Source: Verrucomicrobiia bacterium
GTDB taxonomy: Bacteria > Verrucomicrobiota > Verrucomicrobiia > Opitutales > Cerasicoccaceae
Direction of reading: 5' to 3'
Assembly: GCA_030425485.1 (NCBI GenBank)
Contig: JAUIAM010000018.1
Span: forward strand, 1 to 64,000
Length of the DNA stretch: 64,000 bases
Each line of letters starts with the position of its first letter. The stretch's first letter is position 1. The notes below the pieces were generated by a model. It was not told the DNA's origin. It was given only the letters and a program-made list of their open reading frames with translations, and did no database searches. Made by a program: the position numbers and the translations under genes. Shown here one piece after another: positions 31,420 through 62,453 of the stretch.

Positions 31420-31570
31420 TTTCTCCTGGCACCACTGTGGGGGAAAGTCCGAGCCCTGATGCTCGATTCTCAGCAGGCATTAGCTTCAGGGGCTATGCTT
31501 TGCCGCACGGGAAGTCTTGCAGTAGCTGTGCAGGGTGCTATTCGTTTGCTATGTCCCGTATCAAGCAAGC

Positions 31571-32593: not shown

Positions 32594-32910
32594 TTGATTG
32601 CCTGTACAGGTGGTCTCGGCTGCGCGCGCGGACTCTATGGATTCAGTAAGCGGCATGGGGTCTCCTGCCTTATGGAATGCATATCATTGCATTTCCCCGT
32701 GAAGCGGTTCTGGTTGGGTGCGTATGGGGGTAGATTTTAGATATTGGGAATCTATTTCGTGGTTTAAGTTTCTCTATGATAGGGTATTGCGATTGTTGAT
32801 GGGGCGAGATCGAATTGGGATTTGACCGAGTGTTAAAACGGTATAGCATCTCGGTTCAGGCCCGCTATCTCGGCTGCATGTTCTATGTTAAACCCCAACG
32901 ATTACCTGCT
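32594..32910 (+). other. Intergenic region upstream of the PL8-like gene
   Basis: No gene is seen. It has a GGAATGCA/TGCATTTCC near-palindrome (about 32671-32693), a TAGATT/AATCTA inverted repeat (32731-32754) and the LacI-type operator at 32831-32848. The region just before the ATG holds AAACCCCAACG and no Shine-Dalgarno sequence. Confidence 0.5.
32831..32848. promoter_or_regulatory. Candidate LacI-family operator 2
   Basis: TGTTAAAACGGTATAGCA matches the reverse complement of the site at 30674-30691 at 16 of 18 positions. It lies 62 bp before the PL8-like start. The adjacent LacI-family gene (31571) is the likely binder. Confidence 0.6.
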
Positions 32911-37200: not shown

Positions 37201-37221
37201 CCACACGATTACAACCGTGGC

Positions 37222-37926: not shown

Positions 37927-37927
37927 G

Positions 37928-41112: not shown

Positions 41113-41153
41113 GGCCTCAAGCTAGACGATGGCTTTGGGCTTGTGAATACTGC

Positions 41154-41171
41154 CATTACTTGACAGTAATG
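41154..41171. promoter_or_regulatory. Candidate operator in the araB / LacI-type gap
   Basis: CATTACT-TGAC-AGTAATG is a perfect 7-bp inverted repeat with a 4-bp spacer, extended outside by ACTG/CAGT. It lies between araB and its divergent regulator and includes the ATG at 41169, so the regulator may start at GTG 41178 or ATG 41193 instead. Confidence 0.55.
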
Positions 41172-45190: not shown

Positions 45191-45200
45191 AGATATATCA
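45191..45200. promoter_or_regulatory. WGATATATCA site in the divergent sulfatase gap
   Basis: AGATATATCA lies between the minus-strand sulfatase (start 45152) and the plus-strand sulfatase (start 45388). Nearby is a wider inverted repeat TGATATT-N8-AATATCA (45338-45359). The same motif occurs in five other gaps of the 45-58 kb cluster. Confidence 0.5.
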
Positions 45201-45387
45201 ACATAAATTTTCTGGTGAACTGTAGTGGCTGATCTCCTGTTTGATGAATAATGCTTTTAAAGAGCGTATGCTAGTGGCATCTATGTGCTTAAAATGTCTT
45301 TGGCATGGAGGTTAAGATTTTACTTGAATGACAATTCTGATATTACTAGAAAAATATCAAATATTAAATGGAAAAATACCCCTATCT

Positions 45388-47274
45388 ATGAATCATTACT
45401 TGTATATGAACTCCGCGATTCTCAGTGGGTTAACGGCTTCACTTGTTTTTTCTGGTCTTGGAATGCCTGTGGCGACTGCTGCTGAGAAGGCCCCGAATAT
45501 CCTGTGGATCATCACAGACGATCATCGCCCCGATACGCTTGTGTGCTATAATGAGGCCGTCTCTGGCACTGAGGATAGCCCTCTGGGTTACGTCTCGTCT
45601 CCCTACACAGATAAGCTGGCTGATGAGGGCGTGCTGTTTACCCGTGCTTACAGTAACTCGCCCTCCTGTGCGCCCTCACGCGCCTCCATGTTTACGGGGC
45701 AGTATCCCTTCCGTAACGGTGTCTATGGTTTTGAAACCTGGCGCAGGATGGACTTTGTACAGCAGATGATACCCGAGGTCATGACCGAAGAGGGGTACAA
45801 CACTGTGATGGTGGGGAAGCTGGATGTCAGGATGAATCGCAAGGTTCCGCCGGGCAAGGGAGAGACTTGGTTTGACACCAAATTCGACGCGATCATCGAC
45901 CGGAGCCTAATCAAGGGCAGCGGGCCCGCCAGTGGGCTGGACCATGCCGCGGTCATGTACACGGGTAAGGATGGCCGACGTTATCGCAAGGAGCGCTTCT
46001 ACGTTACCGACGAGGAGTATGAAGAGGTGGATGTGACGGCTCCCGGCGGCTTAAGCCCTGAGCAGGAAAGGGCCTTGGCCGAGTTTGACAAGTCGCATGA
46101 CTACCTGCGGGCTTACCAGCGCAAGTCCGGTCCCTACCTGATTATTGGTGGTGAGACAACACGGGCCAAGGGCGAGGACTATCACGGCTTTGTGAATCAG
46201 TACCTGTTTGATTATTTGGAGCATCCCAACCGTGAGTTTACAGTCCATGTGGAGCCTGAACTCGTTTTTCGAGGGCCCGATCCCTCTAAGCCCGTGTTTG
46301 CCAATCTAGGCTACGAGTGGCCGCATACCCCTGTGCTCCCGCCCAAGGAATTTCGCGATCAGTTTAAAGACATCGTTTACAAGATTCCTGAGTTCGATAA
46401 GGCCGAGCTCAAGAAGCTGCCCCCGCAACTGACACGCTTCTACGATCGGTTTGGTTTTGATGAAATGACCTACGAGGAGAAGCAGCAGGCGATCCGGGAC
46501 TACTTTGCCTTCTGCGCCTATGGTGACTGGCTGATTGGTCGGGCTGTAGAGGAGTTCAAAAAGTACTCCGAGGCGCAATCTCGCCCCTGGGTTATTATCT
46601 ACACGGTGGGGGACCACAGCTGGCACATGGGGGAGAACGGCGTCATGGGTAAGTTTGGCCCCTACGATATGTCCAACCGCTGCGCGATCATCGCCGTTTC
46701 CTCTGATAAGTCGATTTTTCCTGCCGGAGTCGTTTGCGATGATTTAGTGGAGTTCGTTGATCTTGCTCCGACTTTCTATGACCTGGCCGGTGTGGATTTG
46801 CTGAGCGGAGATTATGCGTACCTCGATGGCTACTCGCTCATGGACATCCTGGATGGCAGTGAAAAGCGTGAGTATGTGCTGAATGAAACCAATCACGTCT
46901 ACGAGCACCGCGCATCGATCCGCAACGAAGATTTTGTTTTCTCCATGCGTACGCGCCCTAAAGGCTATCTGGCCGCTCGTGGGTTGGAGACGGACAATAT
47001 CAGGTGGGCGCTTGAGGCTCCGGATAAAGAAGTCGAGATGGCGTTATTTGACCTGCGGGCAGACCCGCTCGAACGCACGAACGTGGCCAATGACGAGGAG
47101 TACCGAGAACTGGCGCAGTGGTTCCGGCAAAAGCTGGGCAGCATCGTGCTCGGGGATCGTCGCGTAGAATACAACTGGACGCGCTGGCGTGAGAATGACC
47201 AGTACGCGTACTATGACTTTGCACTCGGGAGCGATGACAAGGAGTTGGCTATACCTGCTGAGCTCATCCCCTGA
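45388..47274 (+). CDS. Exported sulfatase
   Basis: The 628-residue enzyme has a signal peptide (to about residue 32), the start APNILWIITDDHRPDT and the CAPSR motif (Cys94). Further metal-site motifs are GDHSWHMGENGVMGKFG and ADPLERTNVAND. It is larger than the other two sulfatases, with an internal part that has no clear match. It is divergent from the sulfatase pair upstream and convergent with the GH110-like gene. No Shine-Dalgarno sequence precedes it; TACCCCTATCT does. Confidence 0.92.
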   Translation: MNHYLYMNSAILSGLTASLVFSGLGMPVATAAEKAPNILWIITDDHRPDTLVCYNEAVSGTEDSPLGYVSSPYTDKLADEGVLFTRAYSNSPSCAPSRASMFTGQYPFRNGVYGFETWRRMDFVQQMIPEVMTEEGYNTVMVGKLDVRMNRKVPPGKGETWFDTKFDAIIDRSLIKGSGPASGLDHAAVMYTGKDGRRYRKERFYVTDEEYEEVDVTAPGGLSPEQERALAEFDKSHDYLRAYQRKSGPYLIIGGETTRAKGEDYHGFVNQYLFDYLEHPNREFTVHVEPELVFRGPDPSKPVFANLGYEWPHTPVLPPKEFRDQFKDIVYKIPEFDKAELKKLPPQLTRFYDRFGFDEMTYEEKQQAIRDYFAFCAYGDWLIGRAVEEFKKYSEAQSRPWVIIYTVGDHSWHMGENGVMGKFGPYDMSNRCAIIAVSSDKSIFPAGVVCDDLVEFVDLAPTFYDLAGVDLLSGDYAYLDGYSLMDILDGSEKREYVLNETNHVYEHRASIRNEDFVFSMRTRPKGYLAARGLETDNIRWALEAPDKEVEMALFDLRADPLERTNVANDEEYRELAQWFRQKLGSIVLGDRRVEYNWTRWRENDQYAYYDFALGSDDKELAIPAELIP

Positions 47275-47296
47275 GAAGATGCATGTAGTGTGCGAT

Positions 47297-47326
47297 GGCG
47301 CCCACCTGTACAACTGGGTGGGCGTC
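47297..47326 (+). terminator. Hairpin after the exported sulfatase gene
   Basis: CGCCCACC / GGTGGGCG (47299-47306 with 47317-47324) form a perfect 8-bp stem, extended by a G-C pair after a wobble. Only a weak T-run (CCTTTCC) follows, so termination efficiency is unsure. Confidence 0.55.
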
Positions 47327-47549
47327 GTCCTTTCCGGGTGAGTCGCAGTGCTATGCGTCGCTTCTTTGAAGTGGCGCAGGGGGGCTTCCCTGGCTGGCTC
47401 TTCGAGGTGAGTCCCAGGTGTCTTGCTGAGAGGAGCGGTGGGACATCATCGCGCATGTCTGTGACTTCAGCCTGAGGGCTCGCTCTTGGGGTTTCAGCCA
47501 TGTGGGGATATTGGCCACTGTACGCAGTCTGAGCAGGTGGCGGTATCTG

Positions 47550-47589
47550 AAAAAAAATGCGGGGCCTGCCGATTGCTGACAAGCCCCGC
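47550..47589 (-). terminator. Intrinsic terminator of the GH110-like modular gene
   Basis: GCGGGGC (47559-47565) pairs with GCCCCGC (47583-47589); on the minus strand the stem is followed by eight T's (47550-47557). It lies about 24 bp after the stop codon at 47613. Confidence 0.85.
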
Positions 47590-47612
47590 GCGGTTTATCT
47601 GGTTATCGTAGC

Positions 47613-50600
47613 TCAGTTACTTGAGTTGGGGTATATATTCGGGAATTCGTAGTGGTTGGGTGGATAGAGGTTGATGTTTGCGCAGGTGGCATTGGTTTGA
47701 CCCTCGTCGTGGTTTACGGGGTTTTCACCGGTTATGTAGAAGGTGTTGCTGCGAATCGTTACACCGTCGATACAGCGCATCCATATGGGTTGTTCGGTGT
47801 GGCTTCCCTGCATGGTACAGCCTTCGATTAAGAGGTCTTTGTGTACACCGAAGTCTGAATTGGTACTGCCGGCTCCGATGCGGATGGCTCGCTGACAGTC
47901 TATGAAGTCGCAATTGCGGATCGTGACATTGCGTGTGGATATGCTTGCGTAACCACCATCGTCGGCTGTGCAGAATATCCTGATGCCATTGCCTGCTGTG
48001 TTGTTGAAGGTCGAGTCTTCTACCAGCGCGTTGCGAGTCTTGATGCGCATCCCCTGCGTACGTGTACGACTGACCGTGCAATTGTACATGTAGAAGGGAG
48101 GGGCTTCTTTCTCGTTGGCCACAATTGACCCGGGCTCAATCCATGTCGGGAGGGCCTGATCAAAGGTGACCTCGGCTAGCTCATACTCTACGCTGTCTAA
48201 TGTGAGCTCGAATTCCCGGCTATCGCCGACTTGGGTTACTCCGGTAAGTGAAGGGACATGTATGCCAGCCAGGTCAGCGTCGGAGAACTCATAGGTGTCG
48301 CCGTCCTGGAAGGAGATTTTAGGCTTATTCATCCCGGCAATAAGGATATCCTCTTCCTCTTCTTCCTCTTCACTGGGTGTCGTTACGAAGCCATTGGCCC
48401 ATCCCCTGAAGACCAGCGTGTAGTCATCTATGCGAGAGTAGACCATGGCATAGAAGCCGTGAACATTGATGCCGTCGTCTCCCGTGTCCTCCACGGAGCA
48501 GTTGATGAGATTGATCTGCCCCCGGCAGAGGGAGAAGTGTATGCCATCGAGTGAGGTGGATTTCCATCGGGTACTGTTGGGGCGGCGCATGACGTGGCAA
48601 TCGACGATCTGGAGCACACCGTCCTCCCGGGCGTTTTGGAACATGAATCCCATCCCGGCCGAGGCATAGACTTCTATATCCTCCATGTAGACATTGCGGG
48701 CATTCCTGACCTGGATGGCGGGGGAGCCATGCTTGTAGTAGTAGGCGACAACATAGCTATTCGCTGCAGGCATGTTACCGGAGTGGAGGGTTCCTGGGCT
48801 ATCATTGGTCGACTTTTTAGCAGACTCCCATCGATTGATTTGCAGACGGTTTGGGAAGTCTTCTACGGTCTCACAGTTTGGAGTGCTTTCGTTTTTCTGA
48901 GAGAGGTTGTAGTACGCATTGTTTCCGCTCTTGTAGAAGGGGTAGGTGCCATCGCCAACGTTCTCGACCGTGTCAATCATGACGACGGGTGAGGTAAGTA
49001 CTGGGTGGCCGGGTGCTACTTCGATGACGCAGTTGTCTTCATCGCTCGTAATGACCTGGCCAGCGGTGTAGGGGAGCACGTCCATGTCGGTACGTATACC
49101 CGTGACTTCGATGTCGAGGCAGCCGCTGAACTCGAGGATGCCATCAGGCCCGCCCCCAATGAGTTCAGTGTTATCTCCGTGAACGGAAATGAAGTCGAAG
49201 CCACTGATGTCGATGCAAGCTTGGCCCGGAATAGCATCCAGGTTGTAGACGCCCTGGTCGAATATGATGGCCGGAGCTACAAGATCCTGGGCAACGGCCA
49301 GTGCCTTGTATACGGCATCGGTGTCGCTTGTGCTGTCGTCGGGGAAACCACTAAACTCTGAGATGCGCAGATCAGAGCCGCCGGAGTTGATCGGGTTATC
49401 GGAGAGGATCGGGAGGATGTCTACCTTGGCCAGACTGAAGGTCGGTGTACCGATGAGAATGCCAGATGAGAGGGAGATATTACTGGTCTGGTCGTCGATG
49501 GCTGTACTGTGGGTAAAGGTAAACGGAGTGGGCAAGGGCGAGGGCGGGTTTTCCGGATCGATGACTGGGTAGATCAGGGTCGCATTACTTGAGCTCAGAT
49601 TGAGTACCTTTAGGTCCATGGTGACGTCCCCGTTGGCACTCAGGTCATCGACAGAGATAACGGCCTCCAGGCGATACCAAGTGTTTGCCGAAAGCGTTGG
49701 GGCTGTGCCCGGTAGGTTTTGGTAGTTATTGTAGCCATTGCTCGCGTACTGGATGACCCCTTGATTGCCGCCTGTTCCCAATATGCTTATGCTGGCGATG
49801 GGGTCGTTGCTCTGTCGAAGCCTGAAGGAGAATCGATTCGTATTGCCGAGTGAGGAATAGCTAAAGTGAAGGATGGCCCTGATCTTATCGTCTTCGGATA
49901 TGAACCATTCATCGCGGTCAGTGCCTTCACCAAGATCAATCGTGGCATAGGCGGTGCCTCCGCCCGTGGTGGGGCGGTCAAAGGTTACCTGATTGCCTAC
50001 GGGCCGAAACAGTCCGTGCGTGCTACTGCTGCTGACAATTGCAGAGGAGCCTCCAGTCTCATTGTAGACTGTCCACGGGGCCCCCATGCTGCCGCTGTCA
50101 TCTGTGATGCGATCGCTTACATAGGCGGGAGGGACGGCGTGTCCGTCTGTTGACGTGACGGATACTTTGGCCAATCCGTAGGTCGGCAATCCTGAGGAGA
50201 TCATGCTCATGAAGTTGATGTTAGCGTCCGCGGTCAGTTCCTGGAAGTGAACGACCTCGATACCGCTCTCGTTGTAAACAACGCTTCCGTCGCTCATGTC
50301 TGTTATGCTCAGGGCCATCGTGGATGACTCCCAGGCTCCTAGCTCGCCGATTTCGATTGCAGCCTCGATCTTGTACCAGTTGTTGATGCTGAGCACGGGA
50401 GAGCCCCCGGGCAGGTTGACGAAGTCATTCGTTCCGTCGGTGTCATACTGAACGATGCCTGCGCTGGTTGATTGGCCCTGGATGCGTAGCACGACGATCT
50501 TGTTTGAACCTTCCCGCAGTCTGAGTTGGAACGATTGCCCATTGTTCATGTTGGTAAAGGCAACATGCGTGCTCACCTTAAACGCACTGCCGGGTTGAAG

Positions 50601-50900
50601 TGCATGCGCGAGGGTATGGGTTTTCTCGCCTCCTGCGATGCTTGCGTAGGCCGTTCCTGCCGACGTGCTCGGGCGATTGAGGGTAGCCTGCTTCCCGTCT
50701 GGGCGGTAACCGTTTAGTGTGTAGGCAGCCTCAATGGTTGCCGTAGAGCCGCCAGTGTCATTGGAGACGGCCCAGTGCGAGCCTAGATCGCCGCTGGGGT
50801 ACTGGAAGCGGTCGTTAATGTATTGGTCTGAGAGTAGTTTGGCAGCGGATAATAGAGTAAGGCAGACTATTAGAAGTCCGCGTAGCACGAGGATTTTCAT
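47613..50900 (-). CDS. Secreted GH110-like beta-helix protein with two N-terminal modules
   Basis: The protein of about 1095 residues has a signal peptide, two tandem modules of about 220-230 residues (each with a LG..W.V.N.TGGS pattern) and a right-handed beta-helix with the GH110 pattern: MDVLPYTAGQV, HFSLCRGQINLINCSVEDTGDDG and RTQGMRIKTRNALVEDS. GH110 enzymes are alpha-1,3-galactosidases. An unusual run of eight glutamates occurs inside an extra loop (coded at about 48349-48371). I chose the ATG at 50900 for its signal peptide. It is related to the genes at 53340 and 55122, and its N-terminal modules to the PEP-CTERM protein. Confidence 0.82.
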   Translation of the reverse strand: MKILVLRGLLIVCLTLLSAAKLLSDQYINDRFQYPSGDLGSHWAVSNDTGGSTATIEAAYTLNGYRPDGKQATLNRPSTSAGTAYASIAGGEKTHTLAHALQPGSAFKVSTHVAFTNMNNGQSFQLRLREGSNKIVVLRIQGQSTSAGIVQYDTDGTNDFVNLPGGSPVLSINNWYKIEAAIEIGELGAWESSTMALSITDMSDGSVVYNESGIEVVHFQELTADANINFMSMISSGLPTYGLAKVSVTSTDGHAVPPAYVSDRITDDSGSMGAPWTVYNETGGSSAIVSSSSTHGLFRPVGNQVTFDRPTTGGGTAYATIDLGEGTDRDEWFISEDDKIRAILHFSYSSLGNTNRFSFRLRQSNDPIASISILGTGGNQGVIQYASNGYNNYQNLPGTAPTLSANTWYRLEAVISVDDLSANGDVTMDLKVLNLSSSNATLIYPVIDPENPPSPLPTPFTFTHSTAIDDQTSNISLSSGILIGTPTFSLAKVDILPILSDNPINSGGSDLRISEFSGFPDDSTSDTDAVYKALAVAQDLVAPAIIFDQGVYNLDAIPGQACIDISGFDFISVHGDNTELIGGGPDGILEFSGCLDIEVTGIRTDMDVLPYTAGQVITSDEDNCVIEVAPGHPVLTSPVVMIDTVENVGDGTYPFYKSGNNAYYNLSQKNESTPNCETVEDFPNRLQINRWESAKKSTNDSPGTLHSGNMPAANSYVVAYYYKHGSPAIQVRNARNVYMEDIEVYASAGMGFMFQNAREDGVLQIVDCHVMRRPNSTRWKSTSLDGIHFSLCRGQINLINCSVEDTGDDGINVHGFYAMVYSRIDDYTLVFRGWANGFVTTPSEEEEEEEDILIAGMNKPKISFQDGDTYEFSDADLAGIHVPSLTGVTQVGDSREFELTLDSVEYELAEVTFDQALPTWIEPGSIVANEKEAPPFYMYNCTVSRTRTQGMRIKTRNALVEDSTFNNTAGNGIRIFCTADDGGYASISTRNVTIRNCDFIDCQRAIRIGAGSTNSDFGVHKDLLIEGCTMQGSHTEQPIWMRCIDGVTIRSNTFYITGENPVNHDEGQTNATCANINLYPPNHYEFPNIYPNSSN

Positions 50901-51001
50901 AGGGAGGGGTATTATTTGGGTTATCTTTTGGAGCAACCGGATTGGTTGCGGAAAGCAACGCAGAGATGTGGGGCAATTACTGGTTGAAAAGATTTATTAC
51001 A

Positions 51002-51011
51002 TGATATATCA
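51002..51011. promoter_or_regulatory. TGATATATCA site, divergent gap before the PEP-CTERM gene
   Basis: A perfect 10-bp palindrome, followed by GAATGC, 155 bp before the PEP-CTERM start and 102 bp before the divergent GH110-like start. A TTGACA box follows a few bases later. Confidence 0.5.
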
Positions 51012-51100
51012 GAATGCTTGACATTGGTCAATAAAATAGGGTTTTATGTTTCTCACCAAAGCTTTTATGCACTGAAATAGCTTGACACTGATGGTCCTGT

Positions 51101-51110
51101 AGACATATCA
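51101..51110. promoter_or_regulatory. AGACATATCA site, upstream of the PEP-CTERM gene
   Basis: A second, weaker copy of the motif 56 bp before the PEP-CTERM start, also just downstream of a TTGACA box. Confidence 0.4.
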
Positions 51111-51165
51111 GTATAGCTTTAATTGCAGAAAAATCATTCATACACCCCCAACCCCTACATTAACT

Positions 51166-51990
51166 ATGAAAACACCACTTGCTCTATCTCTCATGCTTTT
51201 CGGCACTGCACTTGCGGCCTCTGCACAGGTTTACGTGCAGGATGATTTCGACTACGCCGATGGCGCCCTGGGTGCTCCCTGGGATGTGACTGCCGGAGGT
51301 CCGCCAAACTCAACCATTACTGTAGAGGCGGCGTCCACTTGGAACGATTTTACTCCTTCTGGAAAGCAGGTAGAGTTCGCCAGGATTAACCCAGGAAGCT
51401 CTATATCCGCGAGACTATTTTCGGGTGAAAACCCAGGTACGACTGTTTGGACTGTAACACCTGGTGATCGCGTTCGGTACTCTGCTGATCTCAATATCAG
51501 CGTTCTGACAGGTAGTCATAACTTTCAGATGTTGCTTATGGCGCAAGGTCAAACCAATCCGCTGAGTATTGGTGGAGTTCGCTTTCAGAGTGCGGGTAGT
51601 AACAATGCTGTGATACAGACAATGTCCACGAATTCTGTGAATAGTTTTACTACTGTTCAGGATAGCCCTACGCTATCTGGTGATACTTGGTATCGGGTTG
51701 TTATTGATCTTGAGGTTATCGATACAACTCATACTAGCTATGACTTGAGTATTGAGCAACTCGGCACAGGGGGCGGCATCGTCTACTCTGGTACGAATTT
51801 TGAGGTAGCAACCTCTGGTGCATTTGGCGATGAGGGGGGTATAATTCTTTCCTCGGGTACCGGCTTCCCAACATTTGACGTTGCTGATGTATCGCTGGTG
51901 GCTATTCCTGAGCCTTCTCAGGCTGCCCTGCTCACCTCAGCCCTGTTGCTGTGTGGTGTGGTTCTGCACCGTCGTCGCAAACTCTCCTAA
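51166..51990 (+). CDS. PEP-CTERM protein with the same module as the GH110-like gene
   Basis: The 274-residue protein has a signal peptide (to about residue 20), a beta-sandwich-like module and a C-terminal PEP-CTERM sorting signal: IPEPSQAALL, a transmembrane helix, then RRRK. The module (DDFDYADGALGAPWDV...GKQVEF) aligns with each of the two modules of the GH110-like protein encoded divergently at 47613. PEP-CTERM proteins are exported and processed by an exosortase (none in the window). A role as an outer-surface glycan-binding component is an inference. Confidence 0.85.
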   Translation: MKTPLALSLMLFGTALAASAQVYVQDDFDYADGALGAPWDVTAGGPPNSTITVEAASTWNDFTPSGKQVEFARINPGSSISARLFSGENPGTTVWTVTPGDRVRYSADLNISVLTGSHNFQMLLMAQGQTNPLSIGGVRFQSAGSNNAVIQTMSTNSVNSFTTVQDSPTLSGDTWYRVVIDLEVIDTTHTSYDLSIEQLGTGGGIVYSGTNFEVATSGAFGDEGGIILSSGTGFPTFDVADVSLVAIPEPSQAALLTSALLLCGVVLHRRRKLS

Positions 51991-52022
51991 ATTGGGGTTG
52001 TAAGATAAATGTAGATTATGCA

Positions 52023-52052
52023 GGGCCGCCTCTGTCTGTTCAGAGGCGGCCC
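52023..52052 (+). terminator. Hairpin after the PEP-CTERM gene
   Basis: GGGCCGCCTCTG (52023-52034) pairs perfectly with CAGAGGCGGCCC (52041-52052), loop TCTGTT. The 12-bp GC-rich stem is strong; the T-run is weak (CTTGCC). Confidence 0.7.
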
Positions 52053-52211
52053 GCTTGCCAACTGAGCGTCTCGTTTCACCGTTGATTTCTCTCGCTCCTT
52101 GCCCTGCTTCTTGTGCTTGGGTGGTAATACTGCTGGAGCGATCTTGGCATCGGAATGACTGTGCTCTGCCTGCGCGACGAGCTGTTTAACCGGAACCATT
52201 GAATCTAGATA

Positions 52212-53174
52212 ATGAGTAAGCCAAAAGTCGTAATATCCGCGGATAACTTGAGCGCTGACCAGGTCAGCGCGATCAAGTCGGCATGCGAAGGCTGGGCGGA
52301 GTGCGTGCATTGTCCGCAGGAAGATCCGCGCCTGAGTAATCCAGACTCAGGACTGGATCCGCATATTCTGATCGGCTGGGCATCTCCCCGCTATCTGGCT
52401 GAGTCGACATTGCAATACTACCTCTGCGGGAGCGCTGGCATTGATGCATACCTGGGGTGTGGATTGGGACAAAAAAACGGCTTTGTGATGACAAATGCGG
52501 CAGGGGTCATGGGGGTGGTCATTGCGGAGCACTGCCTTGCCATGATGTTTAGCCTGACGCGCAAGCTCGCGCTCATGTTTGAGCAGCAGCAGCAGCGCAT
52601 TTTCAGCCGTATCTGGGATGGTGACGAAGTTGCGGGAAGTACGGCCTGCATCGTAGGCTATGGCAACGCTGGCATGCATCTGGCTCGTCGCCTGCGCGCG
52701 ATGGATATGAAAGTCGTTGGTGTGCGCCGTGATGTGTCGAAGAAAGACGAGCATGTTGACGCGCTTTATCCGCTGGAGGGCATGCAAGAGGCGTTTGGGC
52801 AATCAGACCACGTCTTCTGCCTGCTGCCTGGAGGTGAGGCGACAAGGGATTTCTTTAATGCTGAGCGCTTTGCCATGATGAAGCCTGGTTCCTTCTACTA
52901 TTCGGCCAGCCGGGGGAGCGTGACATGCGAAGATGCCCTGCTCAACGCCCTTACCAGTAAGCATCTGGGAGGAGCCGCTATCGATGTCTGTAAAGTGGAG
53001 CCGCTGCCCAGTGGCAGCCCCTTGTGGACCGTGCCCGGGCTCATGATTTCACCCCATAGCGCGGGCCATTCATGGAAAATGCCCGGTCGCCTGACTGAGC
53101 TTTTTATTCGAAACCTGGAGTGCATACGTGACGGGAAGGCTCTCCACAACCTCATCTCGCCGTCTGTCCTATAG
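52212..53174 (+). CDS. D-isomer-specific 2-hydroxyacid dehydrogenase family protein
   Basis: The 320-residue enzyme should reduce a 2-oxoacid or oxidise a 2-hydroxyacid with NAD(P). It has a Rossmann motif (CIVGYGNAGMHLARRL) and the catalytic triad Arg234 (SASRGSV), Glu263 (KVEPLP) and His282 (SPHSAG). It has no signal peptide, so it acts in the cytoplasm. The substrate is not shown; glyoxylate/hydroxypyruvate reductase types and sugar-acid reductases are all possible. It stands in the glycan cluster and may process a breakdown product. Confidence 0.85.
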   Translation: MSKPKVVISADNLSADQVSAIKSACEGWAECVHCPQEDPRLSNPDSGLDPHILIGWASPRYLAESTLQYYLCGSAGIDAYLGCGLGQKNGFVMTNAAGVMGVVIAEHCLAMMFSLTRKLALMFEQQQQRIFSRIWDGDEVAGSTACIVGYGNAGMHLARRLRAMDMKVVGVRRDVSKKDEHVDALYPLEGMQEAFGQSDHVFCLLPGGEATRDFFNAERFAMMKPGSFYYSASRGSVTCEDALLNALTSKHLGGAAIDVCKVEPLPSGSPLWTVPGLMISPHSAGHSWKMPGRLTELFIRNLECIRDGKALHNLISPSVL

Positions 53175-53235
53175 CCAGTCGGAGAAGTGAGATATTCTTC
53201 TGTCCAATAAATTGATCTGGATACAATTCTTACAA

Positions 53236-53245
53236 TGATATATTA
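53236..53245. promoter_or_regulatory. TGATATATTA site before the GH110-like gene
   Basis: One base differs from the perfect palindrome TGATATATCA. It lies about 95 bp before the ATG at 53340. Confidence 0.4.
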
Positions 53246-53339
53246 AAGGGTATTTCAGATCGGTGCGGTGCGCAGGCCTCATGAAGTGAATCTATGAGTG
53301 TTGCCCCGGCCCAAGAAACTTTTTACCATAAGGATGAAT

Positions 53340-55055
53340 ATGATGACTCGACTTTTTATAGGCATGGCCGCGCTAACCTTCGTGGCAGTATCGTCTGCAT
53401 TCAGCTCGGCGCGTGAGGGAAATATGATTGTCGTTACGGATTACGGTGCGGTTGCAAGTGATGGGGTTGACGACGGGCCCGCGGTGCGCGCTGCGCTCGA
53501 AGCAGCCCGTAAGTACGATGATCCGGTCATTGTTTTTCCTCCCGGTCGGTACTTGATTCTCGACCACAAGGAGCTTGACCCGCGCGCACTGCTGCTGGTC
53601 GAGGATTACCCTAAGATCACCCTGCGAGGTGAGGGGGCTGAGATCGCAGGAAACGGCGTGCGTGCGCTGTTTTACTTTTCTCGCTGTGGCGACGTACTCG
53701 TCGATGGTTTGACGGTTGATTGGGACCCGCTTCCCTATACCGGTGGGGTTGTTGTGGCCAGTACCGAGGCGTACATCGACTTGGAGATTAGCCCGGATCA
53801 CCCCGTGCTGGAAAAGCCCGTTGAGGTGCTGGCTGCGGTAGACCCCGAGACGAAGGTACAATTGCGCACGTCCCGGCAGGGCTATTTCCGACTTCATCAG
53901 AAGGATTTCAAGCGCCCGGCGGAAAAGATCGGCGAGCGTACACTAAGGATTTACCGCTCGGATGAGCCGCAGTACCTGGGCTCACTCCCTAAGGGCCTGG
54001 CGATGCCGCAGGTCGGGGCCTACATTATGGCTGTATATCATCAGCGCGGTGGTGGGGCCTTTCCTTCGCGCCATTGCGGTAGGGTGGAGTACAAAAACAC
54101 CAGCGTGTATGCCGTTCCCGGAATGGGGTTTGCCATGCGTGAATGCGAGAGCGGCCTGATCGAAAACTGCCGCGTGACGCGTAAGCCCGGAACCGAGCGC
54201 TGGATGTCTTCCACTGTAGACTCATCGCACTTTAACATGGTTCGCGATAGCGTTGAAATGATCGGGTGCGTTTTTGAGTATCACGGGGATGACGGATCGA
54301 ATATCCACGGCATGTATTCCATGGTTCATGCAGTGGAAGGTGAAAATGTGGTCGTGCTGCGGGGCTGGGGGAATCCATTCTGGAATCATGGGTCCGAGAA
54401 TGACATGGGTAACCCGAATGGTGAATTTCCGGTCGGGGATACGCTGGAGTTTTCCTCGAAAGAGTATCGCCACAAGACGGGCTTTGAGGCCAAGATTATT
54501 GCCGTGGAGACTGTTGATACCGATGGTTTCCAGTTGAAGCGGATCACGCTGGACCGACCGTTGAGTTCTGAGGTGGGGCCGAGGACCTTTGTCACCAATG
54601 CCAACGAGGTTGCGTCATTCCTGATGCGGGACTGCGTTGTCCGTGGCAATCGAGGGCAGGGGACGCGGATAAAAACCCGCAACGCGCTGATCGAAAATTG
54701 CCTGTTTGAGGATATTCATGGGAATGGTATTTGGATCTTTTGCGATGCCGACTACGGTCGAGAAAGCATCGCCAGCAGTCATGTTGTCATCCGCGATAAT
54801 GTCTTTCGCCATGCCGCCCGCGCCGTTCGCTCGGATGCTGGCCGCAAGCCGCCTAACGACCCTGAAGTGCACGAAGACATACGCATTGAAAACAACCTTA
54901 TCGAATACTGTGGGCCCACGCCTATCAAAATGGATTCGGTCAAGGGGTTGGTCATAACGGGAAACACCATCCTGGGCTCATCGGCAGAGCCGTTCCTGCT
55001 CTCGGGCTGTACGCAGGTGGAGATCAATGATAACGACATCCAGGTACGGAAGTAG
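53340..55055 (+). CDS. Exported GH110-like alpha-galactosidase-type protein 1
   Basis: The protein of about 571 residues has a signal peptide (to about residue 24) and a right-handed beta-helix. GH110-type parts are VTDYGAVASDGVDDGPAVR, VDWDPLPYTGG and SHFNMVRDSVEMIGCVFEYHGDDGSNIHG, shown in part. GH110 enzymes remove terminal alpha-1,3-linked galactose; the conserved GDDG and DWDPLP residues support activity. The start is 53340 or 53343, a few bases after AAGGA, the better Shine-Dalgarno site. It forms a tandem pair with the next gene. Confidence 0.85.
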   Translation: MMTRLFIGMAALTFVAVSSAFSSAREGNMIVVTDYGAVASDGVDDGPAVRAALEAARKYDDPVIVFPPGRYLILDHKELDPRALLLVEDYPKITLRGEGAEIAGNGVRALFYFSRCGDVLVDGLTVDWDPLPYTGGVVVASTEAYIDLEISPDHPVLEKPVEVLAAVDPETKVQLRTSRQGYFRLHQKDFKRPAEKIGERTLRIYRSDEPQYLGSLPKGLAMPQVGAYIMAVYHQRGGGAFPSRHCGRVEYKNTSVYAVPGMGFAMRECESGLIENCRVTRKPGTERWMSSTVDSSHFNMVRDSVEMIGCVFEYHGDDGSNIHGMYSMVHAVEGENVVVLRGWGNPFWNHGSENDMGNPNGEFPVGDTLEFSSKEYRHKTGFEAKIIAVETVDTDGFQLKRITLDRPLSSEVGPRTFVTNANEVASFLMRDCVVRGNRGQGTRIKTRNALIENCLFEDIHGNGIWIFCDADYGRESIASSHVVIRDNVFRHAARAVRSDAGRKPPNDPEVHEDIRIENNLIEYCGPTPIKMDSVKGLVITGNTILGSSAEPFLLSGCTQVEINDNDIQVRK

Positions 55056-55121
55056 CACCTCCCGTATTCAGGTATTTAGACTATTTAGCCGCACCACTTT
55101 TACTTTACCCCAATCGCACTG

Positions 55122-56825
55122 ATGAAGTTCTTACCCATCCTTTCTACCACCTTCTTGCTGTTACGTCTGGTCGCTGTTAATAGCGCGGCAGAAGAAATCC
55201 ACGTTGGAGCCTATGGCGCTCTTCCAGATGACGGTGTTTCGGACCGTGAAGCGGTGCAGGCAGCGCTGGAGGCGGCCCGCGGCGTCGAGAGCCCGGTGCT
55301 GGTGTTTGATGCAGGGCGCTACGATTTTGACAGTATTGAGGACAAGGGAAAGGGCCTGATTGATATTCGCCACTACCCGAGCATTGCGATTCGCGGGAAT
55401 GGTACGGAGTTGGTGGGGCAGGGGCTTAGGCCGTTGTTTCTCGTTCGAAACTGTGGTGAAATTACCGTAAGTGAGATTATGGTCGATTGGGACCCGCTTC
55501 CCTACACGGCGGGCGAGGTCGTGCAGACTGGCGATGATTACTGCGATGTGCGTATCGCCGAGGGGCACCCGCTACTGGAGGAGCCCATCGAATCCATTTT
55601 CGCCGTAGAGCCCGAATCGAAGGCCTTTACCAAATCCGGATCGGAGCTGAACTTCAGGCTGGGGCAGCGTGGCTATGCCAAGGCTTCGGAGGTGGTTGAG
55701 CCCGGTGTTCTGAGGATGTACCGCATGCCTGAGCCCCACTCCATCTCTTCGGGGCGTCTGCACGGAGCCATGCCAGCTGTAGGGACGCAAATCGTAGCCT
55801 ACTATAACGTTCGGGGAGGCGGTGCATTTCAGATTTATTCCTGCACCGATGTGACCATCAGCAATGTTGAGGTCTATTCGGCACCCGGGATGGGCTTCAT
55901 GATAAATAATTGCGAGGCCGATGGCGAAGTGCTGCTCATAGACACGAAGGTAATCGCCAAGCCGGGTGCAGGGCGTTGGAAGTCTGTTACCGCTGACGGC
56001 ACGCACTTTAATATGAACAGGGGGGCGATCTCCGTCATCAATTGCACCATCGAGGATGTTGGTGATGATGGGGCGAATGTACATGCATCCTATAACATGG
56101 TGCATGAGAAGGTCTCGCCGGATACCATTGTAGCGCGCGGCTGGATGAATCCCTTTGTCCACCCGGGGATGAAAGAGGAATTCAGGCCACCTAACAGTCA
56201 GTTCCGTGTTGGGGATATGCTGGAGTTTTCCACGGATGAGCGACGACATGTGTCGGCCTTTGAGGCGCGGATTGTTGAATCGTCAAACATCTCAGTGGAT
56301 GGAAAGCGCATGCGGCGCATTCGGCTGGATCGAGAATTGCCGGCGTTTATTGGCGAAGGCACCGTTATTGCCAATGCCAGTGAAGTAGCAGAGTTTTTGA
56401 TGCGAGATTGCACGATGCGCCGAATCCGGGGGCAAGGGGTCAGGGTTAAAACGCGCAATGCGATTGTCGAAGATTCACTGTTCGAAGATATCCAGGCAAA
56501 TGGCATTTGGATTTTTTGCGACGCCGACTACGGTCGGGAAAGCATTTCTGCCAAGAACGTAATCATCCGGGGCTCTACGTTCACCCGTGCTATCCGGGCT
56601 GTACGCTCCAGCGCTGGCCGCCAGGAGCCCATCGACCACGATGTGCACGAAAATATCCTCATTGAGGACTGCATTATCGAAGACTGCGGGTCGACGCCTA
56701 TCCTCCTGTACTCTGTGAAAGACGTGGTTATTCGGAATAATATATTCGACAGTGGGCTTCAGAATCCGATACAATATGAGTACAGCAGCAACGTGCGTAT
56801 CGATGATGGCGAGCAGCTACCCTAA
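55122..56825 (+). CDS. Exported GH110-like alpha-galactosidase-type protein 2
   Basis: The 567-residue protein has a signal peptide (to about residue 22) and is a close paralog of the protein before it: both have DWDPLPYT, GMGF, THFNM and GDDG(A/S)N(V/I)H, and C-terminal RIRGQGVRVKTRNAIVEDS. The pair probably arose by tandem duplication and then diverged. It lies 66 bp after its paralog on the same strand, so the two are likely co-transcribed. Substrate specificity between the two is unknown. Confidence 0.85.
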   Translation: MKFLPILSTTFLLLRLVAVNSAAEEIHVGAYGALPDDGVSDREAVQAALEAARGVESPVLVFDAGRYDFDSIEDKGKGLIDIRHYPSIAIRGNGTELVGQGLRPLFLVRNCGEITVSEIMVDWDPLPYTAGEVVQTGDDYCDVRIAEGHPLLEEPIESIFAVEPESKAFTKSGSELNFRLGQRGYAKASEVVEPGVLRMYRMPEPHSISSGRLHGAMPAVGTQIVAYYNVRGGGAFQIYSCTDVTISNVEVYSAPGMGFMINNCEADGEVLLIDTKVIAKPGAGRWKSVTADGTHFNMNRGAISVINCTIEDVGDDGANVHASYNMVHEKVSPDTIVARGWMNPFVHPGMKEEFRPPNSQFRVGDMLEFSTDERRHVSAFEARIVESSNISVDGKRMRRIRLDRELPAFIGEGTVIANASEVAEFLMRDCTMRRIRGQGVRVKTRNAIVEDSLFEDIQANGIWIFCDADYGRESISAKNVIIRGSTFTRAIRAVRSSAGRQEPIDHDVHENILIEDCIIEDCGSTPILLYSVKDVVIRNNIFDSGLQNPIQYEYSSNVRIDDGEQLP

Positions 56826-56995
56826 GTTATTTTATTTTGTCCATGACGTAGCAGGCTTCGGCCTCCGGCGAGTGTGGTGCATGTCGGCCGCATTTGCCTC
56901 GAAGGGGCTTCGGGGCTAAAAACCAATTGGTAATGAAATGTTTACCTGCCCTATGGCTCGCTTTTTTCTTGGGGTACTTTTTTTGGAATTCTTCT

Positions 56996-57005
56996 TGATA
57001 TATCA
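56996..57005. promoter_or_regulatory. TGATATATCA site before the second pseudopilin gene
   Basis: A perfect palindrome followed by GAAGG, 78 bp before the ATG at 57083. Confidence 0.5.
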
Positions 57006-57082
57006 GAAGGTTTGCGCATTATTAACATTATCACCCCTTACATCGCCGAATCATCCTGCTCGGCAAGTTGCTTGCAATATCC

Positions 57083-57835
57083 ATGCCCGTGAATTCTCTA
57101 TCCCTCAATTCTCCCCGTTCAGTCAAGGGATTCTCCTTGATTGAACTTTTGGCCATTTTAGCCATTATCGGCATCCTCACTGCCGTGATTCTGCCCGTTC
57201 TGGATGGGGTGCGCGAGCGGGCGCGTGCCACTCAGTCTATCGGCAATAAGCGTTCGATTTACACGGCATTTTCGTTGTATCAAGCGGAGCACAACATGCT
57301 CCCACCCCTGATTAACGCGACCCGGACTGGTGGAGGGGTGACTTGGGACACGAGCACCGGTTGGAGTGTATTTATCGTAGATTATCTTGATTCCCAGCCT
57401 GATGAAGATCCTGATACGGAGCTGGTGGCTGTCGATGTTTTGCTCTGTCCGGCGGCGGAGACCCATAACGTGCGTCGTGGAGACTACGGGGTTGCATACA
57501 ACGAGGAGTTTGGGCCTATTCGTAAGCTTACACTGAACCCGGACGGGGGCCTGGCGGATATAAACAAGCGGTCGTACTCTATTAGCGAGCTCAACTTCCC
57601 ATCCAAAACACCGCTTATAGCTGACTGCGAGCAGCCCGGAGCTGGAGGGGTAGCCTACGGTAGCTGGTACTTTAATCCGAGGAGGACGACTCATGACCCC
57701 GCACCCAGCACGCCCTCACTTTCGTACCGCCATGGTGGAAAGGTGCAGATGGTATTTGCCGATGGCAGAATCGACAGTTTTACGCCTGAGGAGATGTACG
57801 ATGAGGTGCTCCCCTGGGATAACGAAAGTCCTTAG
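57083..57835 (+). CDS. Prepilin-like protein with H-X9-DG domain
   Basis: The 250-residue protein has a 16-residue leader, then GFSLIELLAILAIIGILTAV and a C-terminal HGGKVQMVFADG, an exact H-X9-DG motif. This is the second such protein in the window; the N-terminal leader has the same length as in the copy at 30721. Proteins of this type often sit inside glycan loci in Verrucomicrobiota and may be exported with the enzymes. The operator-like motif at 56996 and the position inside the cluster support co-regulation. Confidence 0.85.
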   Translation: MPVNSLSLNSPRSVKGFSLIELLAILAIIGILTAVILPVLDGVRERARATQSIGNKRSIYTAFSLYQAEHNMLPPLINATRTGGGVTWDTSTGWSVFIVDYLDSQPDEDPDTELVAVDVLLCPAAETHNVRRGDYGVAYNEEFGPIRKLTLNPDGGLADINKRSYSISELNFPSKTPLIADCEQPGAGGVAYGSWYFNPRRTTHDPAPSTPSLSYRHGGKVQMVFADGRIDSFTPEEMYDEVLPWDNESP

Positions 57836-57896
57836 GAACTGCATTTCGGTCCGATCTGGCCTGTTTTATTCATTGACAGTTTTTTAATACAGCAAT

Positions 57897-57906
57897 AGAA
57901 ATATCA
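57897..57906. promoter_or_regulatory. AGAAATATCA site before the NAL/DHDPS-family gene
   Basis: Two differences from TGATATATCA; followed by GAAG as at the other sites. It lies about 100 bp before the ATG at 58008, with a TTGACA box just upstream. Confidence 0.4.
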
Positions 57907-58007
57907 GAAGAAATAGCAAATTTGGCTTTTTACCTGTGGCTTTATGCGCGATTCCAAATGGATTCAATCGTAGCCAAGTCAGCAGCAAACACTCTAACCC
58001 ATATTTT

Positions 58008-58949
58008 ATGATCGAAGTACCCACACGCGGGCTGATTGCAGCCACGTTTACCCCCATGAATGATTCCGGTACGATTACCCTGGATCCTATCGAAAGCTAC
58101 GCGGAGCACCTGAGTGCCACGGGCATTGAGGCAGTCATGGTGGGTGGTACAACGGGTGAATTTCCCTCTCTCTCGACAGAGGAGCGCATTGCCACCACAC
58201 GACGCTGGCGCCAGGTAGTGGGCTCGGAATTCGCGCTCATTGCGCATGCCAGCCATACCTGCCTGGAGAAGGCGGTCGAAATGGCCAAGGCGTACAGTCA
58301 GATGCAGGTGGACGCGGTTGCGGTTGCAGCTCCTTACTTTTTCACGCCGGCTTCTGCTTCGCAGTTCATCGCGTTCCTCAAGCCGATTGTTGAGGCATTG
58401 GGTGAGGTGCCGCTCTATTATTACTACATTCCGTCGATGATCCAGTCGCCGATGACTCTCGTTCAGTTTCTGGATGAGGCCTGCGACGCGCTACCCGAGT
58501 TGAAGGGGGTGAAGTACACCCATTATGACGCAGAGGAGCTGGGGCGCTTGATTCGCCGCTACGACGGCCGCTATGACTTTGCCTTTGGCCGTGATGAGAA
58601 TTTCCTGGACGGCTTAAAGGCGGGTGCAAATATAGCCATCGGAAGCACCTACAACTTTTTCACGAGCGAATTTGGGGCTGTACGTGAAGCCTATGAGGCT
58701 GGAAATATCGCCCTGGCAAGCACACTCCAGGCGGGCCTGACGGAGTCCATCGATGCGATCATCGAAATGTCACCCAATCCGATGAGTGGCCTGAAGTACA
58801 TGATGAAAACGGTGGGCATAGACTGTGGACCTGTGCGTTTGCCGCTTGCTGCCATTACTCCCAAAGCGGGAGATGCACTTGTCGAAAAGATTGCCGAAAT
58901 CCTGGCCAGAAGCAAAAAGTGCGTGGTGGGTGCGGACGTAGTTGCCTGA
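58008..58949 (+). CDS. N-acetylneuraminate lyase / DHDPS family aldolase
   Basis: The 313-residue class-I aldolase has the family motif VGGTTGEFPSLSTEER, the catalytic tyrosine region YYYYIPSM and the Schiff-base lysine K169 in GVKYTHYD. The YYYYIP and GVKYT forms resemble N-acetylneuraminate lyases more than dihydrodipicolinate synthases. It should split or form a 2-keto-3-deoxy sugar acid. Next to a sialidase-like gene, sialic acid breakdown is a reasonable guess, not proven. The cytoplasmic location follows from the lack of a signal peptide. Confidence 0.85.
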   Translation: MIEVPTRGLIAATFTPMNDSGTITLDPIESYAEHLSATGIEAVMVGGTTGEFPSLSTEERIATTRRWRQVVGSEFALIAHASHTCLEKAVEMAKAYSQMQVDAVAVAAPYFFTPASASQFIAFLKPIVEALGEVPLYYYYIPSMIQSPMTLVQFLDEACDALPELKGVKYTHYDAEELGRLIRRYDGRYDFAFGRDENFLDGLKAGANIAIGSTYNFFTSEFGAVREAYEAGNIALASTLQAGLTESIDAIIEMSPNPMSGLKYMMKTVGIDCGPVRLPLAAITPKAGDALVEKIAEILARSKKCVVGADVVA

Positions 58950-60497: not shown

Positions 60498-62453
60498 TTA
60501 CTTGCCCTCAGGGCTTTCGTCGCGGTTTAATCCATCGCTTACGGTGCCATCATCGAGGGGGTTGGCTTTGGTCGAGCGCAGGATTGCCAGCATCTGTCGG
60601 AGGTTGATCGTGCCACCAATGAGGAACCAGATGGTGACGACGACGGCTTTCAGCATGCCGATGCCGAGGTAGATTTTCCAATATGAAAACCACCAGTCGT
60701 CACTCCAGCGCTCATGTATATTCATGATGGATATGATGACGAATGCGCTGAAAAGGCTCATGGACCACGCGATGGTCAGGTAAAATACGACCCTGTCCCG
60801 AATATTAAAATCCTTGCCTGGTCGGAGCGCGGCCCAGTTCAGTTTGAACTTGGTGTTGCGGTAGTTCTCGGGGTGCGGTGTTAGCTCGGCGTACTCGCCA
60901 CGGTGTAACATGCGATCGAGGTTGAAGTGCTTTCGCTGTGCCAGAGATACGATGAAGTAAATGCTGAGCGAAGTCACCATGGCCGCGAAAAGCATCTGCT
61001 GGCCGTCAAAGGGGAAGTCGGGGTTAACTTGCTTGGTAATGATGCCGCCACAGCCGATAATGGCGCCGGTAATCATCGAGGCGAAGGCGCCAGCAGTCGT
61101 ACCCCTTCGCGTATAGAGACCGCCGATGATGGCTGCGCCAGCACCCCCGAGGAAGAGCGCACCCGTGAGCGAAAAGAAAAGCAGAATGTACTGCGTCTGC
61201 TGGAAGAACAGGCTGAAGAAAAAGGCAAAGATGGCCACGCCGCAGATGGACAGGCGGAGTGCGATGAGGTGTACCTTCGGAGAAAGGGGTTTACCGCGGA
61301 GGGGCACGATCACGTCCTGTATCAGGATGCTTCCCCATGAGTGCAGGTAGGTATTGTCCGTGGAGATGGCAGAGGCAAACATGACAGTAGCGAACAAGCC
61401 CAGTAGGCCGACCGGGAGCAGTTCTCGCATGATGACGGGGGTTGTCAGCTGCTCGCGTACTTGCCCATTGGTGATCGTCTCGAGCGCGGCGCGAGCACTT
61501 TCGGCTTCGGCCTGATGGCTGGTCCCGTGCAGTACCATGAGCGCAGCGATGGGCAGAAAAATCGGCAGTAGCGAGGTAACTGCGGTGCGCCACTGAGCGA
61601 GGACTTTCCCCATGCGGGCTTCATGCGGCGAGCGGGCCGATGCGTTATATGCCTGTCCACCTTGCCAGGCCATGGTCCAGTAGAAGGCACCGAACAGGTT
61701 TACCATGAAGAAGAAGGCGTTGAAGTGCTTTACTTCGCCAGCATCGAAGGGGTTAATCTTGGACTCCCCGCTTGGCCCAAGAGACTGCATCGTTTGTTTC
61801 ACATCGATCAGGTTGAATTGCAGGACGAGGTAGATGAGCACAACGACCAGCACGATGTTGATGAACTGCGCCTGAATGAAGTCCGTCACCATAATCACGA
61901 TCTGACCACCACTCAGGGTAAAGGCCAGGGCGAGCGAGAGCAGCACGATCATGACCACGGGGAAGGTTGGGATGGCGAAGCCCTCGACGGATATGCCTTC
62001 GGGAAGCCCGCAGAAGTAGATGAAGAAGCGGGCCGTCACGGCTGGGAAAATGCCGTAGTTGATGATGCCTGAGGTGAACGCCAGCATACCGGCAAAAATA
62101 CGGAAGCGGCGCCCGTAGCGGAGCTCAAAGAATTGCCCGAGCGTCATGGCGCGGGTTTGCCTGTAGCGGTAGATGACCCATCCGGTGGTGGAGATAATCA
62201 ACGCGGCTGGCAGCAGCATGAGATGCCAAAAGGCCGGTACGAACCCGGCCAGAAAGTACATCTCGAAGTATGCGATGAGGTTGATAGCACCGGTGCCCGA
62301 AGCGCCCTCGGCCATGGTGAGCAAGTATCGGCCGGCCGAGCGGTTGGCCGACAGAAATTCGGCCACGCTGGTGGTGTACTTGCGCAGTAGAAGGGCAACC
62401 ACGATGAGCACGACAGGAAACGTGCCCAGTATAGTCCAATCAAGTAAACTCAT
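60498..62453 (-). CDS. Sodium:solute symporter family transporter
   Basis: The 651-residue protein has about 13-14 transmembrane helices and the start of the SSS fold (LLDWTILGTFPVVLIVVALLL), then GHDSNA-type family regions such as SANRSAGRYLLTMAEGASGTGA and FASAISTDNTYLHSWGSI. It should import a sugar or sugar acid with sodium ions. In the glycan cluster it is the likely uptake route. It is in the same operon as the FAD-oxidoreductase-type gene 48 bp upstream. Confidence 0.9.
   Translation of the reverse strand: MSLLDWTILGTFPVVLIVVALLLRKYTTSVAEFLSANRSAGRYLLTMAEGASGTGAINLIAYFEMYFLAGFVPAFWHLMLLPAALIISTTGWVIYRYRQTRAMTLGQFFELRYGRRFRIFAGMLAFTSGIINYGIFPAVTARFFIYFCGLPEGISVEGFAIPTFPVVMIVLLSLALAFTLSGGQIVIMVTDFIQAQFINIVLVVVLIYLVLQFNLIDVKQTMQSLGPSGESKINPFDAGEVKHFNAFFFMVNLFGAFYWTMAWQGGQAYNASARSPHEARMGKVLAQWRTAVTSLLPIFLPIAALMVLHGTSHQAEAESARAALETITNGQVREQLTTPVIMRELLPVGLLGLFATVMFASAISTDNTYLHSWGSILIQDVIVPLRGKPLSPKVHLIALRLSICGVAIFAFFFSLFFQQTQYILLFFSLTGALFLGGAGAAIIGGLYTRRGTTAGAFASMITGAIIGCGGIITKQVNPDFPFDGQQMLFAAMVTSLSIYFIVSLAQRKHFNLDRMLHRGEYAELTPHPENYRNTKFKLNWAALRPGKDFNIRDRVVFYLTIAWSMSLFSAFVIISIMNIHERWSDDWWFSYWKIYLGIGMLKAVVVTIWFLIGGTINLRQMLAILRSTKANPLDDGTVSDGLNRDESPEGK

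Follow-up and report, generated by a model that had tools for sequence, protein, structure and literature searches.

Operators of FadR-subfamily GntR regulators are described as TKGT/ACMA, in which GT and AC are separated by 2 or 3 nt; Arg45 of FadR contacts a G, and in 13 FadR groups extra boxes lie 7–12 nt from the site centre (PMC4494728). Atu1419 of Agrobacterium fabrum (VanR group, FCD-GntR; PDB 6za3) is reported to be a tetramer that takes one palindrome per dimer. Its Arg45 reads G3 of the 10-bp palindrome ATGTATACAT, in which G3 and C8 are essential, and the double change G3A/C8T abolishes binding (PMC7797058). Here we analyse a 64,000-nucleotide stretch of a Verrucomicrobiia bacterium (assembly GCA_030425485.1, contig JAUIAM010000018.1, positions 1 to 64,000; 'the window'), in which a 10-bp motif with the perfect form TGATATATCA recurs ahead of sulfatase and other genes. 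From its sequence and company, this motif is very probably the operator of a GntR-FCD regulator of FadR/VanR type, regulator A and/or its paralog B, which would repress a regulon for sulfated glycans and sugar acids.

The UxuR-type operators TKGT-NN-ACMA have the same 10-bp half-site layout as the motif, but carry a G/C pair in the GT/AC core where the motif has A/T (PMC4494728); as its extra box the motif has another unit, at a constant 12-bp step. Atu1419 shares with the clade of regulators A and B its domain architecture and, if the predicted operator of the clade is right, a 10-bp palindrome and several sites per regulon with the regulator's own promoter region included. It differs in the G3/C8 pair and the arginine that reads it, both replaced in the clade, and in having two of its palindromes 190 bp apart rather than units 12 bp apart (PMC7797058). 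Escherichia coli NanR, the FCD-GntR of the sialic acid regulon, whose dimers cooperate on close DNA repeats, is comparable in type, but binds direct repeats of GGTATA and needs an N-terminal extension (PMC8012715). No NanR-type direct repeat was found in the motif, the unit of which is a palindrome. Among the papers listed in a literature search on the motif word, and on its core together with GntR, none was relevant.

Clustering of the motif

An earlier note on the window had listed sites at 45191, 51002, 51101, 53236, 56996 and 57897, close to start codons. All six are present at these positions, with a candidate start codon within ~165 bp of each, and the two perfect palindromes that it counted are those at 51002 and 56996. 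The consensus WGAHATATCA fits exactly at five sites, while 53236 (TGATATATTA) is one letter off. The flanking (g/a)AA that had been taken as part of the motif partly represents the start of another unit at a distance of 12 bp. Window numbering is that of the contig (C37 of the genome, G000), which runs to 79214, and the series, clustered within the window as the note had it, continues beyond the window edge with copies at 68106 and 71061. A one-way strand bias seen in the window was dropped, since the loci of genomes G002 and G003 contain both orientations.

The window contains seven strand-matches of WGAHATATCA (five places) against 0.26 expected from dinucleotide shuffling, a count reached by none of 100 shuffles. 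The 13-letter consensus with two mismatches was little above chance (16 seen, 9.5 expected, reached by 5 of 100 shuffles); the signal is therefore carried by the 10-mer core, which was used throughout. Genome-wide (3,813,870 bases, 62 contigs) WGANATATCA gave 19 rows, or 16 distinct places, of which seven (including two shortly beyond the window edge) fall in the 26 kb of C37:45191–71070 and nine are scattered. With these nine as background, 0.06 places are expected per 26 kb. As the region had been picked after the motif was seen, the 15.2 kb beyond the window provide a fairer test, and contain two more places against 0.06 expected (P 0.0015). Two of the three perfect palindromes in the genome lie within the cluster.

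Open reading frames (ORFs) of 80 aa or more contain six of the nine off-cluster places, and these six were set aside as regulon members. One more (C43:49773) meets such a frame at its first base and so lies just upstream of a possible start, and two fall outside any. In a mechanical count that included 53236, two of eight cluster sites overlap such a frame: 51002 a 95-aa frame, and 68106 the 5′ end of the longest frame of regulator A. The gaps of the cluster contain six sites in 2,536 bases. No site was found in the 23,823 bases of control gaps (C37:1–43700 and seven other GntR loci), of which 9,254 are in gaps of at least 50% AT, so in the gaps tested the motif is not equally common in other AT-rich DNA. 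Although the word is scattered in other genomes of the set, an AT-rich word recurring by chance in AT-rich gaps is scarcely credible in view of the shuffles and the control gaps, and is contradicted by the link to 17 regulators and the 12-bp spacing described below.

Two GntR-FCD genes past the window end

The earlier note had seen no obvious regulator next to the motif, because the window edge cut the contig. Past the window end, at 3.3 and 8.5 kb, two GntR-FCD genes (A and B) begin among more motif copies, and with them the missing regulator has very probably been found. They are 61% identical and 4.3 kb apart, have the FadR-type architecture of an N-terminal GntR winged helix and a C-terminal FCD domain, and have nearly identical recognition helices (SVAPLLEA and SVAPVLEA). 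Neither meets an NCBIfam cut-off. Their best match, phnR_burk (TIGR03338), extends over nearly the whole GntR-FCD length but scores 74–75 bits against a curated cut-off of 271.5, so that neither is a member; the NanR model matches regulator B weakly (20 bits against 260).

A model of a clade member from Geminisphaera (predicted local distance difference test score 79, predicted template-modelling score 0.65, from an alignment of 4) consists of a winged helix and a helical domain that matches FCD structures, with Atu1419 among the top solved-structure matches (E 1.5e-7, template-modelling score 0.56). Histidines 150, 193 and 215, putatively of the FCD effector/metal pocket, are invariant in all ten aligned clade members.

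Association of the motif with the regulator clade

Seventeen relatives were chosen by protein alone, and 250 bp upstream of each were examined. They comprise the two of our genome, three from G002 (same genus as the window), one each from G003, G005 and G009, that of Geminisphaera colitermitum TAV2 (57% identical over the best segment), two from Spirochaetes (42% and 35%), and six from other families of the phylum, found among 387 genomes searched. G002 and G003 are near-identical at the locus and count once. Left out were L064, which is the G002 C74 locus, L067–L069 (27–29% identical, Arg present, no site) and G631, which was found from DNA.

A perfect TGATATATCA was found upstream of six of the 17 regulators (0.01 expected), and a site with at most one mismatch upstream of nine (0.22 expected), which by computation gives these nine genes the upstream site expected of autoregulation. 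Among eight control GntR-FCD genes, seven from our genome and one from G002, none had a perfect site and one had a site with one mismatch (0.08 expected). Five of the six members from other families, 37–46% identical, carry a perfect site that lies 34–62 bp ahead of the matched stretch; in the remaining one, from G618 (68% GC), the site is TGATGTGTTACGTGAAACATCA. The more distant Spirochaete member has a perfect site at −92. The sole genomic copies of TGATATATCA in G002 (2/2) and in G003 (2/2) lie less than 3 kb from a regulator. The genes on G002 C35 and in G003 have two mismatches in their upstream sites, yet five sites in the 8 kb round the gene, and the neighbouring 20.0 and 15.6 kb of C35 contain none.

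A LacI-type gene (41061–42218) and an AraC-type gene (74154–74966) are also found within or next to the cluster, and G005 too has an AraC-PhyH pair near its regulator, so that either gene might own the motif with the GntR genes as bystanders. We regard this as improbable. Homologs of the LacI 41061 protein and of the AraC protein were each found at two of 16 regulator loci, against a site with at most one mismatch at 14; since the GntR gene was the reason for choosing 15 of these loci, the comparison is informative on the motif side only. In distant genomes the motif lies just upstream of the GntR gene itself, and its layout is the FadR-type palindrome, from which LacI-type operators differ. 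A second LacI-type gene, at 31535, was rejected as owner, having no match in the 16 loci.

A second unit at a 12-bp step

The flanks of 21 sites were scored with the sites' own matrix at offsets 10 to 40 on both sides. Offsets −12 (z 7.3) and +12 (z 6.4) were the only clear ones, reached by none of 2,000 shuffles; +10, which ranked next, was marginal (corrected p 0.043). Five later sites outside the matrix repeated the 12-bp step, with 36 of 50 letters matching against a mean null maximum of 22.7 (none of 5,000 shuffles). The second copy, at exactly 12 bp, is usually weaker than the first; the best tandem examples are TGATATATCA-CG-TGATATGTCA in G563 and TGATATATCA-CG-TGATATTATT in G607.

A loose pair pattern with one mismatch allowed occurs at seven places in our genome, five of them in the cluster, and its reversed control at none. 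One off-cluster match is at C2:33155. The other, G000:C11:102994–103015 (L108:9994), is a tandem-like site between a sulfatase-like ORF on the minus strand, which it precedes by 75 bp, and a SulP-like permease ORF on the plus strand, the ORF types being judged by eye from the translations; this site is a predicted regulon member outside the cluster. The tandem pattern with one mismatch matched in four of 387 genomes scanned. In G563 it lies just upstream of the clade regulator. In G631, where it was found from DNA alone, it lies 27 bp ahead of the likely ATG of a GntR frame that fits the clade profile (E 9e-21) and was absent from the matches of the protein search.

The earlier note had also considered a promoter element, and pairs resembling TTGACA/TATAAT do overlap several sites; site 51101, for example, overlaps TTGACA-N18-TATCAG. 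Such overlap reached p 0.05 or less against shuffles in nine of 27 rows of a table that lists 68106 once for each direction and has the G005 row positioned manually. The position of the motif relative to the hexamers varies, however, and a general promoter box, whether a −10 box or the site of an alternative sigma factor, is not expected to be limited to 16 places in 3.8 Mb with seven clustered, nor to be symmetric, with a repeat at 12 bp, and tied to a single regulator clade. That the cluster genes share a core promoter element is thus unlikely, the motif following this clade into distant genomes and being rare elsewhere in its own. The other proposal of the note, a shared operator, is well supported by the clustering, the gap test and the link to the clade. 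The hexamer overlap fits a repressor site, although it is no proof of repression.

A3/T8 in the DNA and a missing arginine in the protein

In the TKGT-NN-ACMA layout with a 2-nt centre, TGATATATCA, the perfect site of 6/17 members, has A and T at positions 3 and 8 in place of the conserved G and C of the GT/AC core. When FadR residues were placed from the published table rather than from a structure (PMC4494728), the Arg45 position was occupied in the 17 clade members by V (10), P (5), S (1) or L (1), and in none by Arg; the Arg49 position is likewise not Arg. Arg stands at the Arg45 position in five of the eight control paralogs and in all three low-identity loci. DNA and protein thus differ together in the expected place. 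The clade appears as a natural counterpart of the published operator mutation, in that letters reported to abolish Atu1419 binding (PMC7797058) are the normal ones here and the G3-reading residue is absent.

The three controls that lack Arg have TGATCGATCA upstream (two 91%-identical orthologs of SQST type) or TCATATATCA (SPIP type). The five that carry Arg have nothing closer than two mismatches upstream (TGATAAATCG for the gene on C9), and with the low-identity loci none of eight Arg-bearing relatives has an upstream site with at most one mismatch. There is therefore a hint, noticed post hoc and from few cases, that loss of Arg goes with a TGAT-NN-ATCA operator class in general.

Two of these control types were noted in their own right. 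The sister GntR-FCD with helix SQST, ~32% identical to regulator A, has TGATCGATCA upstream in G000:C16 and in G002:C118, and a second copy occurs in the C16 locus (positions L084:413 and 1470, L091:9514), a candidate related operator; G054 has a 41% relative of the C16 paralog. The SPIP-type gene at G000:C52:23231 (L089:9700) has a longer palindrome, TCATATATCATATATGA, the first half of which is 31 bp upstream of the matched stretch.

Genes of the cluster and of related loci

The gene types named in the earlier note stood in part (Table 1). Pfam confirmed the sulfatase, the pseudopilin-like protein and the aldolase as a member of the DHDPS/NAL superfamily. The PEP-CTERM protein was just under the cut-off, and the genes called GH110-like matched Beta_helix. 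Against the NCBIfam NanA equivalog cut-offs the aldolase scored 122 against 281 and 107 against 382 bits, which places it in the DHDPS superfamily only. Past the window the order of genes is a DUF6259 gene at the edge, regulator A, a rhamnosidase-like gene, an enolase-superfamily dehydratase-like gene, regulator B, PhyH and AraC.

Table 1. Coordinates of genes and predicted operator sites on contig C37
Feature	Position	Strand	Remark
Operator unit AGATATATCA (predicted)	45191..45200		127 bp ahead of sulfatase ATG at 45328
Sulfatase (PF00884)	45328..47274	+	Predicted target
Possible degenerate tandem pair TGATATTACT/AAAAATATCA	45338..45359		12-bp spacing; at very start of listed sulfatase ORF
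Beta-helix protein (PF13229)	47613..50936	-	Predicted target, other side of site 51002
Tandem operator AGATTTATTA-CA-TGATATATCA (predicted)	50990..51011		Between genes 47613-50936 (-) and 51166 (+)
Operator unit AGACATATCA (predicted)	51101..51110		55 bp ahead of PEP-CTERM-like gene
PEP-CTERM-like protein	51166..51990	+	Predicted target; 19.9 bits against Pfam cut-off of 20.7
Operator unit TGATATATTA (predicted)	53236..53245		One mismatch; ahead of beta-helix gene at 53298
Beta-helix protein	53298..55055	+	Predicted target
Operator unit TGATATATCA (predicted)	56996..57005		Perfect palindrome; ahead of pseudopilin/DUF1559 gene
Pseudopilin-like protein (N_methyl + SBP_bac_10/DUF1559)	57068..57835	+	Predicted target
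Tandem operator AGAAATATCA-GA-AGAAATAGCA (predicted)	57897..57918		Ahead of DHDPS/NAL-family aldolase gene
DHDPS/NAL-superfamily aldolase	57936..58949	+	Predicted target
SSF sodium:solute symporter	60498..62453	-	No good site here
FAD_oxidored	62502..63893	-	No good site here
Tandem operator (predicted)	67264-67285		Past window
GntR-FCD regulator A	67316-68158	-	PF00392 and PF07729 above cut-off
Tandem operator (predicted)	68094-68115		Past window; between homologous part of regulator A, inside its longest frame, and divergent rhamnosidase-like gene
Tandem operator (predicted)	71061-71082		Past window; ahead of enolase-superfamily dehydratase-like gene
GntR-FCD regulator B	72464-73150	-	PF00392 and PF07729 above cut-off

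The pair at 45338 could be an operator only if the true sulfatase start lies further down. The G002 and G003 loci share with ours the SSF transporter (74–75% identical), the FAD oxidoreductase (71%), a BNR_2 protein (55–56%) and a DUF6259 protein (52%). There, unlike in our genome, motif copies accompany both the transporter gene and the oxidoreductase gene: the G002 relative of the symporter has TGATATATCA at its upstream end, and that of the oxidoreductase has TGAAATATCA just upstream. Genes of DHDPS/NAL type and for 2-hydroxyacid dehydrogenase, BNR or sulfatase proteins lie near other members. Among the genes tested, G524, G009 and L066 have unrelated neighbours, as does G636, together with a partial NAL-type match at the contig end. 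The gene types near the regulators suggest that the effector is a sugar acid derived from sulfated glycans.

A PhyH dioxygenase gene with a divergent AraC gene stands beside the GntR gene both in our genome (C37:73268–74966) and in G005 (L050:12168–13875), the proteins being 66% and 48% identical. Window positions 31535–42218, adjoining the cluster, contain two LacI-type regulator genes (31535, 41061) together with genes for arabinose isomerase, an FGGY kinase, a class II aldolase and a polysaccharide lyase family 8-like protein; this is probably a second, separately controlled sugar-use locus.

Proposed mechanism and implications

We propose that one winged-helix dimer is seated on each 10-bp palindrome, and that at a tandem TGATATATCA-NN-TGATATATCA two dimers or one tetramer would lie side by side, possibly cooperatively. 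The effector-free protein would repress the sulfatases, beta-helix enzymes, NAL-type aldolase and sugar-acid dehydratase, and regulator A would repress its own gene too. A sugar acid in the FCD pocket would then release the regulator from the DNA.

Several observations weigh against this proposal. The argument for repression consists of the hexamer overlap, beyond shuffles in a third of the rows, and family precedent. Sites 45191, 51101 and 56996 have a weak second unit or none. Eight of the 17 members (regulator B, G002 C34, G002 C35, G003, G002 C74, G005, L065 and G618) have at least two mismatches in their best upstream site; the 20 kb examined at G002 C34 contain no site with fewer than two mismatches, and the only perfect site of the Spirochaete L065 is 6.7 kb away, inside a called ORF. 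In G481 and G650 the tandem falls within coding DNA, and the 4.6 and 11.5 kb examined there contain no such regulator. Of the perfect copies in G005 and G009, none (0/6 and 0/3) is near the genome's own regulator, and G004 (10 copies), G007 (2) and G008 (1) have copies and, at E 1e-35, no clade regulator; TGATATATCA is absent from G001 and G006. The reversed word has five copies in G004, a single-contig relative, and its ten may be word background or belong to another reader of the same site. Given such copies with no regulator nearby, an isolated word does not in itself establish a site in those relatives that are richer in AT.

A different version of the proposal keeps the operator, but has it bound by an activator, or read by both paralogs with different effectors as a two-input switch. 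The presence in one cluster of two close paralogs with nearly the same recognition helix is in its favour, as is the position of site 51002 upstream of a −35-like hexamer, and nothing computed separates it from repression by one paralog; we hold it possible, at clearly lower probability than repression.

On balance we lean towards an undescribed GntR-FCD subfamily in the window's phylum and in Spirochaetes, in which the Arg45–G3 contact has been lost, A/T is read instead, palindromes are set in tandem at 12 bp, and the regulons serve sulfated glycans. Judging from the literature searched, the control of the many sulfatase clusters of this phylum seems to have been little studied. If the proposal is correct, the regulator and its operator would form a pair from which regulons could be predicted in genomes that lack genetics.

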